A stretch of DNA of 7,419 nt from Chloroflexota bacterium. GTDB taxonomy: Bacteria > Chloroflexota > Anaerolineae > Promineifilales > Promineifilaceae. Location: positions 1 to 7,419 of the forward strand of contig QQUD01000092.1 of assembly GCA_008501785.1 (NCBI GenBank), written 5' to 3'. The translations under genes and the position numbers were made by a program. The notes below the pieces were generated by a model. It was not told where the DNA came from. It saw only the letters and a list, made by a program, of their open reading frames with translations, and did not search any database. Shown here piece after piece: positions 826-7,419 of this stretch. How positions within the stretch are numbered: position 1 is the stretch's first letter; the number at the start of each line of letters is the position of its first letter.

Positions 826-1737
826 CTAGCTATTTTCGATCTGGTCCCAATAATGGGTGGGGAGGGCGGGGTCGGCGTCGATGTCGCCCTTGGGTTCGAT
901 GGGGTGGGCGTCGATGTCTGGGATGTTGAGCAGTTCGTCGATGTCTGGCAGGATGCGTTTGAGCAGTTTGGCGTTTTTGAAGGATTGGCGGCAGGCAGTA
1001 CGTACGCGACTCTCTATTTTGTCTGTTGATTTGGCAACGGTGGCAAAGGCTGTGGGAATGGTGAGTTCGACTTTGTAGAGGTCGGCAATGTCGTAGACGA
1101 AGGAAAGCTGCTTGCCGTTGTGAATGAAGCCGAGTCCTGGTGAGTAGCCGCCGGAGACGATGGCGGCGTGGCAGATGCCGTTGAGCAGGGCGTTGGCGGC
1201 GGAGAGGGCGCGGTTGATGGGGTCGGTGGTGCTCCAACTGCCGCGATTGTATTTACGGCCGTGCCAGGGTACACCATGTTTTTTGCTGGCCTGTGCGTAT
1301 GCTTGACGGACGCGCACGCCTTCTTTGCCGCGAATTTGGGGAAGTGTAAGATCATCTGGCAGGGTGGTGTTGAAGCGGTGGCGGTACATGTTGATGACAA
1401 CTTGGATGCGTTTGGCCGGGTCGCTAACGAGTTCTGCTTGCCGCAGCAGCCGGGTGGCCTTGCGGGTTTCGCCGGTTCCTTGTGCATAGAAGCGTGTTGC
1501 CTCTTGGCCCAGCCAGAGGATGGAGCAGCCGCTGCGGGCGAGGATGTTGACGGCGGCATGGGTGATGCTGGTGCCGGGCCCGAGCATGAGCACGGACAGG
1601 TTGGCGGTGGGGATGAGGGTACGGCCGTTTTTCTTCACATATTCGATAGCTTGTTGTTTTTTGTCGATGATGGCATGTTCGATGTAGTGGTAGCTGAGGC
1701 TGTCGCGCAGCTTGGGTAGTTCGTGTAGGTTTTGCAT
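826..1737 (-). CDS. cas1e: CRISPR-associated integrase Cas1, I-E type
   Basis: A 303-residue Cas1e, nearly the same length as E. coli Cas1 (305 aa). It is the metal-dependent integrase that joins pre-spacers to the leader end of the array, acting with Cas2 in the cytoplasm. The active-site set is intact: E139 (in R-G-K-E-G), H206 (in G-F-I-H-N-G-K), D216 and D219 (in Y-D-I-A-D-L-Y-K). These match E141, H208, D218 and D221 of E. coli Cas1 with a constant offset of 2. The N-terminal part shows L52-G-P-G-T-S-I-T-H and C71-S-I-L-W-L-G. The ATG at 1737 is preceded by AGGAG with a 6-nt gap, overlapping the end of a heptad repeat. The C-terminal tail is rich in D and P, as is common in the subtype. 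The gene follows cas6e after 143 bp and ends inside the repeat sequence before cas2e. Confidence 0.98.
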   Translation of the reverse strand: MQNLHELPKLRDSLSYHYIEHAIIDKKQQAIEYVKKNGRTLIPTANLSVLMLGPGTSITHAAVNILARSGCSILWLGQEATRFYAQGTGETRKATRLLRQAELVSDPAKRIQVVINMYRHRFNTTLPDDLTLPQIRGKEGVRVRQAYAQASKKHGVPWHGRKYNRGSWSTTDPINRALSAANALLNGICHAAIVSGGYSPGLGFIHNGKQLSFVYDIADLYKVELTIPTAFATVAKSTDKIESRVRTACRQSFKNAKLLKRILPDIDELLNIPDIDAHPIEPKGDIDADPALPTHYWDQIENS

Positions 1738-1746
1738 GGTGAACTC

Positions 1747-1802
1747 CTGTGATCGGTGATTCGTGGTCGGTAATCCGTAAACGATAATCGGTGGTCAGTA
1801 AT
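1747..1802 (-). repeat. Degenerate heptad tandem repeat upstream of cas1e
   Basis: Read on the minus strand, 56 nt divide into eight consecutive 7-nt units without a gap. Examples are ATTACTG, ACCACCG and ATTACCG. Other units differ at one to three positions; six of the eight end in G after a pyrimidine or purine, and all eight have A at position 4. Two-unit (14-nt) periodicity is also visible, alternating ATTA- and ACCA-type units. The last unit runs into the cas1e ribosome binding site. A possible ninth unit (TTCACCA) lies just upstream at 1803-1809. Heptad tandem repeats are known in intergenic DNA of filamentous cyanobacteria, but with different sequences; no relationship is claimed. Confidence 0.7.
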
Positions 1803-1842
1803 TGGTGAACCTGGTATTTGGTTGTTAAGGTGCGTGTTGATG

Positions 1843-4959: not shown

Positions 4960-6545
4960 CCCGTTCCCTCCTGTTTGGGATAATTTTTGTTGCGCAGGTT
5001 ATACAAACTGGCACGGCAATGGTTCACCGCTTCTTCGCAAATGAGGGCGGTGGATGTGCCGGTATTGAGCTGTTTGGCGGCGTTATAAAACACGTCGATG
5101 CCGGTGCGGATGACAACTTGCAGCCAATCTTCGAATATTGCGGCTGTGTCTGCATCTGGCGTGAAGCGCATAATCCAGCGGCGGAATTCGTCGCCGAGCT
5201 GCTGCCAGTAGGCTTGGAGCATCTGGTTTTTAACGGCCGTTGACCCTTTAATTGGTGTTGCATTGGGATGCTGCTTAGAAACACCACCAAAATGCTGGGC
5301 ATAAATGCGTTTGAGTGCTTTATATTCGCATTCTTCGGCAAAGGTGATGGCGTCTTGAATTTTTATGGCAAAATCGGCATTGGTGAGAATAGTGGGCGGC
5401 ACAGAGAATCCATTGCTTTCCCATTCGAAAATTTTCTTTTTATCAATTCGTAAACTGAATGTCTGAAACGGAATTGGGGTTGTTTTTCCATATGGCAATC
5501 TTTCACGAATTTCTTCATCATTGAGTTGACCAATAAATGATGGACGTAAGAAACTTCCTACATTCGTTGATGGAAGAAAAAGAGCAACATAGTCGCGCCA
5601 AACAGCGCGACCTTTTCGTGGTTTGATTGGAATTGGTTGCTCTTTGTTTTTAGAAAAATAGGCAACAAAGGGATCGCGCCAAAATGGAGCATCTTTGGGA
5701 AGATATTCGCCAGGTGCAAAAAACATCTCTTCTGCACCCCAGGCCGTTTTGTATCCGCATCGCGAGCATGTTTTATTCATCACTATCGGATATAGTCTCA
5801 CCCGTCGGGCTGGAAATGTAAGGCTATGAAGATAGCCCAAGCGTAAAACTTCTTCCTTTTTGACAGTTGGGGCATGTTTCCACCAAGGCTTATCGTCAAC
5901 TTCAGCACCAGGTCGGAAGTAGGGTGTTAATAATGAAGAAACAAGGCTGTGATAATAAGTATTCCCCCCTGGAACAACATAAATTGGTGGAATTCCATTG
6001 ATTGAGGTTGAATAACCCCGTCCGCCAGGTTGTGAAAATGTGGGAATCGTCAACAGGCCTTTTGAACAACAAGACGCACAAAGAATATGCTCAAAATCAT
6101 AAATATGATTGTAATGTGTCACAGAAGTGTCTGCGGCTTGTTCCTGTATTAATTCACTGATTGCTTTGCCCTTACCTCGCTTTTCAGGGTAAAGAGGGAT
6201 GTCGGCTGACTGCAAAAAGGGTGTTTCTTCAGAGAACAAATCAAACCGATGGGCGTATTCATCGCCAAACTGTTTGATTTTGTTGGGTGGGAAGGCATCG
6301 ACCTCCCACAAATCAAGCAAATCGTATTCAACCTCAGGCTGGAATATATCTTGCAATATCGCTGTTAATAGGCGATGGATGCTGACGACAACCAGCGGTG
6401 ATGGGTCGAATAGGGTGCGGTAAACGGCCGTGTTGAGCAGCAATTGTTCAATACTCACCATCTCTAACGCACCTGATGGCCTTTCTACCGTGATCCACGG
6501 CTCTGACCATAGGTTGAAACGGGGGGGATCATGTGTTGAAACCAT
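4956..6545 (-). CDS. cas8e: Cascade large subunit Cas8e (Cse1/CasA)
   Basis: A 529-residue Cse1 (E. coli CasA has 502). It recognises the PAM, opens the target DNA and recruits Cas3. The N-terminal F10-N-L-W-S-E-P-W-I-T-V block is the family signature, and F101-D-L-F-S-E-E-T-P-F-L-Q follows. W289 in P-F-W-R-D-P and the segment 335-343 (P-S-F-I-G-Q-L-N-D) lie where PAM-contacting loops are expected, but that placement is inferred. Two Cys pairs, C156-x-x-C159 and C260-x-x-C263, could bind a metal. The C-terminal helical bundle ends in C510-R-A-S-L-Y-N. The start at 6545 is chosen over an upstream TTG at 6581, because 6545 has AAGGAG 9 nt upstream and avoids a 12-residue extension into cas3. 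The stop overlaps the cse2 start. Confidence 0.96.
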   Translation of the reverse strand: MVSTHDPPRFNLWSEPWITVERPSGALEMVSIEQLLLNTAVYRTLFDPSPLVVVSIHRLLTAILQDIFQPEVEYDLLDLWEVDAFPPNKIKQFGDEYAHRFDLFSEETPFLQSADIPLYPEKRGKGKAISELIQEQAADTSVTHYNHIYDFEHILCASCCSKGLLTIPTFSQPGGRGYSTSINGIPPIYVVPGGNTYYHSLVSSLLTPYFRPGAEVDDKPWWKHAPTVKKEEVLRLGYLHSLTFPARRVRLYPIVMNKTCSRCGYKTAWGAEEMFFAPGEYLPKDAPFWRDPFVAYFSKNKEQPIPIKPRKGRAVWRDYVALFLPSTNVGSFLRPSFIGQLNDEEIRERLPYGKTTPIPFQTFSLRIDKKKIFEWESNGFSVPPTILTNADFAIKIQDAITFAEECEYKALKRIYAQHFGGVSKQHPNATPIKGSTAVKNQMLQAYWQQLGDEFRRWIMRFTPDADTAAIFEDWLQVVIRTGIDVFYNAAKQLNTGTSTALICEEAVNHCRASLYNLRNKNYPKQEGTG

Positions 6546-6549
6546 AAAT

Positions 6550-7419
6550 TTATGCTCCTTGTTTTTCGATAAGAATGCCAAGCTGTGGTTCAGACTGAAT
6601 CACAATATTGTCAATTTGGACGAAGCCATTGTTCATCCATAAGGGATAGCTGCGTTTGAGTAATGCAGACTCAGTAAACAGTTCAGGTCTCGCCGCGTTT
6701 TTTAATGCGTTAACGATTTCAGGACGGCTGATGCGAACGCTTTGTTGAAGCAAGCGGAGCTGTGTGTTGCGGTTTGCTGGCTGATGTAATGGTAGATAGG
6801 GCGTTGTTGGTGTACTGCCGTTTTCCTCATCCAATTTTTCAATGGGAATGACGGTAATCGTTTCCCGCTCCTGATAGCGGGTTTGGGCCACGACCCAATC
6901 TGCGCTGTCCTCATCCTCATGAAAAGTGATGCCGTCGTGCCTGCAGAATGGTCGGCGCGGGTTTGGCTCTTTGGTCAGGCGAATGTTTGCTTCCCCTTCG
7001 AGTTTGCTTTCTTTCGCCTGCCGTTCCTGCCATGCTTTGCACAAAGGGGAATCCTGTGCCGGGTCTGTATCGTCGTAGACGGCTTCGATTAGTGGGCGGT
7101 AGTCGTGGGGGAGGTTGAAGGGGGCGGAAACGGCCGTTTTCTCTTCAATCACCTGCCATGTTTTCAGCAAAATATAAGGTGTATAAAAACGATCTTTACC
7201 AATGCGCAACTGTTTCCGTTCGTCCAATTCATAGTTGATGAAGACATGCGGCTCAGTATGCGCGTCGGGGCGATCGGCACGATCATGACGGTACAAACGG
7301 CCAATGCGCTGCAAAAGCAAGTCAATCGGGGCCAAATCAGAGACCATCAAATCAAAATCAATATCCAGGCTTTGTTCCAAAACTTGTGTGCCAATTACAA
7401 TCCCTTTCGGTGGGCGATT
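6550..7419 (-). CDS. cas3: CRISPR-associated helicase/nuclease Cas3, C-terminal part (5' end outside the window)
   Basis: The final 289 codons of Cas3, open to the right edge of the window. Cas3 is recruited by target-bound Cascade and translocates 3' to 5' while its HD nuclease cuts the displaced strand. The visible part begins inside superfamily 2 helicase motif V (I7[16 protein letters not shown]) and continues with motif VI (Q37-R-I-G-R-L-Y-R-H). The rest matches the C-terminal domain that closes over the DNA channel. The HD domain, Walker A and DEAH motifs would lie beyond the right edge, so it cannot be seen whether HD is fused here. An internal TTG at 7380 is not a real start, since the conserved sequence continues upstream of it. 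It ends 4 nt before cas8e. Confidence 0.96.
6555..6560 (-). promoter_or_regulatory. Ribosome binding site that fixes the cas8e start
   Basis: AAGGAG on the minus strand ends 9 nt before the ATG at 6545. It overlaps the end of cas3, whose TAA stop is at 6552-6550. This favours 6545 over the upstream in-frame TTG as the start of cas8e, and it suggests coupling with cas3 translation. Confidence 0.8.

Follow-up and report, generated by a model that had tools for sequence, protein, structure and literature searches.

A highly iterated 8-bp palindrome in a Chloroflexota CRISPR-Cas locus and in the genomes of one Anaerolineae lineage

A 7,419-bp stretch of DNA from a Chloroflexota bacterium (contig QQUD01000092.1, hereafter the window) carries numerous copies of an 8-bp palindrome, ACGGCCGT, in its clustered regularly interspaced short palindromic repeats (CRISPR)-associated (cas) genes. 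Counts in related genomes showed that ACGGCCGT is a genome-wide iterated palindrome of one Anaerolineae lineage, in which it occurs once per 500-1000 bp. It is a highly iterated palindrome (HIP)-type signal distinct from HIP1 (GCGATCGC), and the cas genes are passengers carrying the signature of their host. That the signal is lineage-wide and maintained we regard as almost certain. An earlier reading of the window from its letters alone (the sequence-only reading) had suggested a HIP1-like signal; its overall interpretation is partly supported by the analysis presented below. HIP1 itself, which received its name in 1995, continues to be debated.

Copies of the palindrome in the window

The window contains 11 exact copies of ACGGCCGT, a perfect 8-bp palindrome, while 200 dinucleotide shuffles yielded 0.19 copies on average and 2 at most. 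The sequence-only reading had counted the same 11 copies in the cas genes against about 0.1 expected, which is near the computed value. All 256 palindromic 8-mers were tested, and each of the others was present in no more than one copy; the HIP1 octamer GCGATCGC was absent from the window. The core hexamer CGGCCG occurs 14 times and is flanked by A and T in 11 cases, as had been estimated (binomial probability of at least 11 of 14, given window base composition, 1e-11).

The copies are carried by cas1, cas6e, cas5, cas7, cse2, cse1 and cas3; cas2 has none. Five sites are read in frame 1 (H/N-G-R) and five in frame 0 (T-A-V), and the site at 2661, located in the cas6e/cas5 overlap, is read in both. 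The use of two frames in seven unrelated proteins, noticed in the sequence-only reading, was recovered in the same seven genes.

Genome-wide density, lineage and dialects

Densities of ACGGCCGT were determined in 396 Anaerolineae genomes drawn evenly from a larger group, using rounded genome sizes. Eighteen genomes (hereafter rich) contain 990-2102 copies per Mb, with a maximum of 14,867 copies in one genome. Two genomes are intermediate (514 and 421 per Mb), and the remaining 376 have at most about 180 per Mb, with no copy at all in 10 of the 396. The reversed control pattern is not enriched in the 18 rich genomes (11-66 per Mb). A genome-wide count had been set by the sequence-only reading as a refuting test; run on relatives, it came out in favor of the signal in one lineage.

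Several of the features by which a HIP-type signal is recognized were found in these relatives. A single palindromic octamer dominates by a wide margin throughout the genome: about 420 kb of G364, which has the highest copy number, contain ACGGCCGT 818 times, versus 9.2 expected from an order-1 Markov model (an 89-fold excess) and 28.7 from an order-3 model, the latter expectation being itself inflated by the motif. The comparison with all other 8-bp palindromes that had been proposed was made in the same genome, and the runner-up among the 256 has 29 copies. The octamer is present in coding and non-coding DNA and in several frames, with 748 of the 818 sites lying within open reading frames (ORFs) called by a simple caller; densities are 1.98 per kb in called ORFs, where all three frames are used, and 1.68 per kb outside. 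Finally, variants are concentrated at the outer positions, one-off variants at positions 1 and 8 being found at 1.65-4.3 times expectation and those at inner positions at 0.34-1.49 times.

The 30 UvrA sequences that best match that of G364 were placed in a FastTree phylogeny, which is rough and does not include the rich genome G374. The 17 rich rows require 2 changes on this tree versus 7.7 with shuffled labels, and none of 500 shuffles was as low. In a nested group (G292, G069, G116, G330 and G037) the signal is largely lost. Among the database names near the UvrA of G364 are Ca. Promineifilaceae, Promineofilum and Ardenticatenaceae. The counts in relatives and the UvrA tree together show a host-wide, lineage-specific iterated palindrome, and the HIP1-like reading was borne out in this respect. 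Since G001, a genome with a related Cas7, is motif-poor (61 copies in 9.0 Mb), the signal follows the lineage and not the cas genes. Matches to the window Cas1 at E 1e-3 were obtained in 70 genomes; the best, with 73% identity, is in G135, and none of the other 17 rich genomes is among the 70. From the density of the window, its G135-like cas1 and the sites shared with G135 we infer that the genome of origin is probably motif-rich too.

Some relatives use the same core with another outer pair. G183 has GCGGCCGC (143 copies in 100 kb, 2.4 expected) and G096 has TCGGCCGA (30 in 20 kb, 0.5 expected); loss of the HIP in these two genomes was rejected, other dialects being present instead. In G153, G283, G206 and G353 CGGCCG is in 7- to 12-fold excess with mixed outer flanks. 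Whole-genome counts of CGGCCG and of its reversed form GCCGGC in 80 chosen genomes gave ratios of 2.64 to 271 in 11 core-rich genomes and at most 2.57 in the other 69, so that the two groups are separated narrowly at the low end: the highest values among the 69 belong to G037 of the signal-loss group (2.57), G081 (2.42), G201 (2.26) and G162 (2.10). The high ratios of G183 and G153 partly reflect avoidance of GCCGGC. An outer pair K..M (IUPAC codes) accounts for 0.90 of CGGCCG in G183 and 0.84 in G096. The share is 0.41-0.49 in G162, G201 and G081, with a mild core excess (ratio 2.1-2.4), and these genomes may represent weak further dialects outside the UvrA clade. Excess of the CGGCCG core is common to more lineages than ACGGCCGT itself, and the outer pair differs by lineage. 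In G183 GCCGGC is nearly gone (51 copies in 8.0 Mb) and several other palindromes are absent from 100 kb (L200-L204), as if restriction sites were being avoided.

The palindrome is also found in mobile elements. At least 120 viral loci contain a close pair of ACGGCCGT sites, and in 20 of those 120 it is the top palindrome, at 1.2-3.7 per kb, densities that are raised by the choice of loci with a close pair. Eight motif-rich viral loci were scanned (20 proteins). A terminase was identified in L445 and L508 and a tape-measure protein in L503; contigs with a terminase or tape-measure gene hold ACGGCCGT at 1.5-2.7 per kb. L409 and L468 belong to one 100-kb contig, with FtsK-like and ParA-like proteins in L409, which is perhaps a plasmid, and a peptidase-like domain in L468. 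No family match was obtained in the protein scan for L447, L392 and L404. These last three loci together with L409 and L468 have 2.8-3.7 ACGGCCGT per kb, above the bacterial genomes counted. The motif may also mark the hosts of metagenomic phages and plasmids.

Comparison with HIP1 and the alternate HIPs, as portrayed in sections of Elhai 2015 (PMC4390886), revealed several common traits: a GC-rich 8-bp palindrome with a 6-bp core, an outer pair specific to the lineage, palindromic extensions, and deviations mostly at positions 1 and 8. The density here, about 1000-2000 per Mb, compares with around 500-2500 per Mb given for cyanobacterial HIPs in the same sections. The signal differs from HIP1 in belonging to another phylum, in its core (CGGCCG versus CGATCG) and in that no methyltransferase tracking it was found among the families tested. 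Among the matches listed, HIP literature concerned cyanobacteria throughout. No report of the ACGGCCGT motif was among the top matches in the open-license literature, where the octamer itself appeared only in the context of DNA encryption. A separate HIP case in another phylum, with dialects, losses in near relatives and core-only relatives, offers natural experiments that could separate selection, methylation and biased repair.

Site retention, flank context and possible explanations

Retention was scored by blastn of orthologous stretches, with sites facing gaps dropped and other 8-mers used as background. Of 112 sites compared between the close pair G359 and G389 (92% identity), 105 are kept (background 0.578). 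Comparison of G364 with G236, G256 and G359 gave 49 of 53, 39 of 42 and 7 of 14 sites kept, respectively (background 38%, 43% and 18%); with G347 (75% identity) it gave 55 of 77 (background 0.129), the figure being 55 of 65 when G347 is taken as the starting genome. Between G236 and G347 25 of 36 are kept (background 15%). An earlier, overlapping set of alignments had yielded 25 of 29, 26 of 29 and 19 of 23. In the UvrA alignment the motif is found in 15 columns in some genome, 11 of them in a single genome; the 4 shared columns hold it in 7 of the 17 rich genomes (column 1350, in genomes distant in the tree), in 6 rich genomes and G153, in 6 and in 4.

For the window itself, the nearest cas1 locus (L103 of G135) can be aligned along 1.07 kb with 74% identity. 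Of the 11 window sites 3 are alignable and all 3 are kept (chance 6e-4), which supports the view that the cas operon has been in its host for a long time or was acquired from a relative with the same signature. The comparison of orthologous cas genes that had been called for also showed that none of the 29 other fetched cas1 loci contains ACGGCCGT.

The sites are embedded in a skewed context. In G364 the bases 5′ of the site are G-rich and C-poor on each strand, with peaks at −4 and −3 and fading over about 40 nt; left G minus C amounts to 0.185 (standard error about 0.011) at 7-12 nt for 815 sites. A similar skew was observed at 355 sites of other rich genomes, and skew of the same sign at the 11 window sites. 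In the motif-rich viral loci the G preference at −4 and −3 is 0.38 and 0.40. At sites with a single correct outer base the skew is one-sided, and it was not seen at CGGCCG without the A..T pair or at GCGCGC, GGCGCC and CCGCGG sites. After codon-phase correction it resides mainly in third codon positions; it is also present at 60 strictly non-coding sites. Its relation to site age is mixed, one-sided sites being without skew in G359/G389 (11 sites) and with skew in G364/G347 (35 sites). Left and right skews are uncorrelated and vary independently. Selection for a hairpin or cruciform is not supported: in 36 tests mirror pairing was sometimes above and sometimes below expectation (z −2.9 to 2.7). 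With no consistent mirror pairing and with independent sides, the skew does not represent a hairpin. REP (repetitive extragenic palindromic) and BIME (bacterial interspersed mosaic element) repeats are mostly intergenic and form a longer hairpin; ACGGCCGT in G364 differs from them both in this respect and in lying mostly inside called ORFs.

Sequence-specific recognition that affects DNA repair or recombination is suggested by the retention of sites, by the dialects and by a context that weakens away from the site. The overall explanation to which we incline is that the host recognizes the core with its outer pair in the course of repair or recombination. Host machinery would recognize the core with the outer pair in double-stranded DNA and act at the site, for example by nicking or cutting the DNA or by marking the strand to be chosen; sites would arise through point mutation and be maintained by functional selection, by biased repair or by both, and their flanks would drift towards G-rich 5′ sides. 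Repair or recombination as the underlying process is, taken separately, a tentative proposal, which was given somewhat less weight than initially because the skew is weak or unclear in two other dialects. Rather unlikely, in our view, is a role of the palindromes as entry sites, spread over the genome, for some host process of nicking, breakage or recombination. As each strand is G-rich 5′ of the site, a cut there would leave G-rich 3′ ends on both sides; the process would keep the sites, skew would accumulate around long-lived ones, and a change of enzyme would amount to a change of dialect. Chi and other recombination or segregation oligomers are also short and genome-wide, with a G-rich strand beside the site, but Chi is non-palindromic and strand-oriented, in contrast to the dyad-symmetric context of ACGGCCGT. 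If true, entry sites of this kind would constitute a symmetric Chi- or HIP-like system, which was not found described in the literature searched.

A number of observations weigh against recognition in repair or recombination. At sites shared with G364, G347 has 1.18 net G per 22 nt versus 3.27, and since G347 keeps sites with much weaker skew, the skew is not essential. In G183 (142 sites) the near skew hardly exceeds that of the far flanks, and for the 39 sites of G096 it does not exceed the error; both genomes prefer G at −4 and −10. Core-only genomes show a small skew or none. The skew as a fixed part of the site is thus weakened by G347 and the other dialects. Conservation of the flanks does not clearly surpass background, and the near-random spacing of sites in G364 (mean 493, coefficient of variation 1.08) disfavors a coverage function. 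No protein recognizing ACGGCCGT was found, and functional selection and biased repair are inseparable on present data. Viral loci rich in ACGGCCGT (365 sites) also show little skew beyond 12 nt. HIP1 sites in viral loci (450 sites in 24 HIP1-rich loci of 120) have no skew beyond about 6 nt; given the little skew of ACGGCCGT in viral loci, this comparison is not decisive. The G-rich 5′ context extending about 40 nt is a possible further difference from HIP1, which was compared on viral contigs only, and the difference is not established. The skew is a mechanistic clue that could be looked for at HIP1 as well.

The main alternative involving methylation is the mismatch-repair proposal made by Elhai for HIP1, according to which an orphan methyltransferase would mark CGGCCG or GGCC and the choice of strand in repair would ratchet neighboring positions into the 8-mer. 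The formal pattern of HIP1 given in sections of PMC4390886 (a GC-rich palindrome built on a 6-bp core and varying mostly at positions 1 and 8) is matched, and the GmeC rule of Elhai would agree with the GCGGCCGC dialect on the assumption of methylation at the first core C; it would leave the outer A..T or T..A pairs unexplained. Passages of PMC6560206 indicate that GGCC methylation in Synechocystis touches replication and repair, and passages of PMC6329791 describe methylation of GANTC, TTAA and GCWGC in other Chloroflexi. The sequence-only reading had suggested that the motif could be a methyltransferase target and that a solitary methyltransferase should be sought. A universal 5-methylcytosine enzyme was rejected, as 8 of the 18 rich genomes, among them the richest, G364, lack PF00145. 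PF02384 is absent from G169 and G374 among the 12 rich genomes tested. The broad family PF01555 was detected in 41 of the 43 genomes examined for it, including every one of the 18 rich genomes, yet not in core-rich G206. Of its two matches in G364, one (408 aa) was taken by eye for a probable rRNA methyltransferase; the other is an orphan of 658 aa that has a DPPY motif and in which the PF01555 match is split. This orphan represents a type of amino-methyltransferase of about 660 aa with a circularly permuted PF01555 match (L167:1273-3249, minus strand; L171:73-2076; L212-L241), which gives a faint DUF1156 match in L171, falls below the NCBIfam cut-offs and is widespread in Anaerolineae. With the three best candidates per genome scored, and with genes possibly missing from draft genomes, the orphan was found in 17 of the 18 rich genomes (in three as pieces), G135 being the exception, and in 31 of 378 others at E <=1e-100 (32 at 1e-80; Fisher P 2e-16, uncorrected for kinship). 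It was not found in core-rich G135, G283, G153, G206 and G353, and outside the clade a CGGCCG/GCCGGC ratio above 1 is seen in 7 of 24 carriers and 10 of 36 non-carriers. The orphan thus fails both ways as a general cause, core-rich genomes lacking it and carriers lacking core excess, and remains a candidate inside the rich clade. As none of the families tested (PF00145, PF01555, PF02384 and the orphan) tracks the motif, the methyltransferase-target idea is unsupported as originally put. We consider methylation-directed repair unlikely.

Purifying selection for the binding site of a chromosome-organizing, replication or segregation protein is similarly doubtful. High retention per site, a symmetric context in which G peaks at −4 and −3, and lineage dialects, which would be expected if binding proteins co-evolved with their sites, speak for it; random spacing, the high density in phage-like contigs and flanks that are not clearly conserved base by base speak against it. 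Uptake sequences are known to form dialects around a common core, and the density, the constant-core dialects and the weak flanking consensus resemble those of a DNA uptake sequence (DUS or uptake signal sequence, USS), which would have been built up by preferential uptake and recombination through molecular drive as in Neisseriaceae and Pasteurellaceae. The drive idea appears in parts of PMC1939737, where known uptake sequences are non-palindromic, whereas ACGGCCGT is a perfect palindrome and is abundant in the contigs with terminase or tape-measure genes; we hold this explanation to be improbable. Codon or protein constraint and base composition can be given practically no credence. Coding copies do use TAV and xGR codons, and both cas1 sites of the window overlie a GR pair present in each of the ten relatives inspected. 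Chance, codon constraint and base composition are nevertheless refuted by the shuffles, the Markov counts, the use of three frames and of non-coding DNA in G364, the orthologous cas1 loci without the motif and the unenriched reversed control, and the earlier statement that protein constraint is insufficient holds.

The CRISPR-Cas locus

The window is an ordinary type I-E CRISPR-Cas locus with the gene order cas3-cse1-cse2-cas7-cas5-cas6e-cas1-cas2 followed by an array, and is unusual among such loci only in carrying the palindrome. Assignment to type I-E follows from cas1e, cas2e and the Cascade genes adjoining the array. The coordinates are listed below.

Features of the window (positions of the 7,419-bp stretch)
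Feature	Position	Strand	Remark
CRISPR array	2..335	+	6 identical 29-bp repeats, period 61; ACGGCCGT in neither repeats nor spacers
cas2 (Cas2e)	388..732	-	TIGR01873, 77.9 bits, cut-off 33.15; no ACGGCCGT site
cas1 (type I-E Cas1e)	826..1737	-	TIGR03638, 362.6 bits, cut-off 215.6
cas6e (CasE)	1881..2693	-	TIGR01907
cas5e (CasD)	2543..3208	-	TIGR01868
cas7e (CasC)	3201..4331	-	TIGR01869
cse2 (CasB)	4396..4959	-	TIGR02548
cse1 (CasA)	4956..6581	-	TIGR02547
cas3, 3′ part, runs off window	6550..7419	-	NF007248 and TIGR01587, both below cut-off, as expected for a partial gene
ACGGCCGT, cas1, HGR frame	1255..1262	.	kept in L103 (G135)
ACGGCCGT, cas1, NGR frame	1621..1628	.	kept in L103 (G135)
ACGGCCGT, cas6e, NGR frame	1983..1990	.	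kept in L103 (G135)
ACGGCCGT, cas6e, NGR frame	2223..2230	.	exact match
ACGGCCGT, cas6e/cas5 overlap, NGR and TAV frames	2661..2668	.	exact match
ACGGCCGT, cas7, NGR frame	3315..3322	.	exact match
ACGGCCGT, cas7, TAV frame	3709..3716	.	exact match
ACGGCCGT, cse2, TAV frame	4679..4686	.	exact match
ACGGCCGT, cse1, TAV frame	5233..5240	.	exact match
ACGGCCGT, cse1, TAV frame	6424..6431	.	exact match
ACGGCCGT, cas3, TAV frame	7130..7137	.	exact match
CGGCCG cores without A..T outer pair	3773, 3797 (span 3773..3802); third at 4225	.	core count

The proteins of the window have Chloroflexota affinity. Both Cas7 loci found belong to Anaerolineales metagenome-assembled genomes, and the named near matches of Cas1 are from Chloroflexi and Anaerolineaceae.

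Several repeats were noticed besides. An inverted repeat with GAGCGAGAGC and GCTCTCGCTC units, seen by eye, lies at 758-820 of the window, between cas1 and cas2. In L103 of G135 a copy of ACGGCCGT at position 3110 falls inside the CRISPR array region, apparently in a spacer, and the element targeted by this spacer may carry the motif. In the G001 locus (L001) CACGCGTG occurs 79 times in 21 kb, perhaps in CRISPR repeats. G236 and G256 contain REP-like dispersed repeats on both strands, with many copies among the matches listed (L090:17747-17799, about 13890-13990, and 15412-15604).

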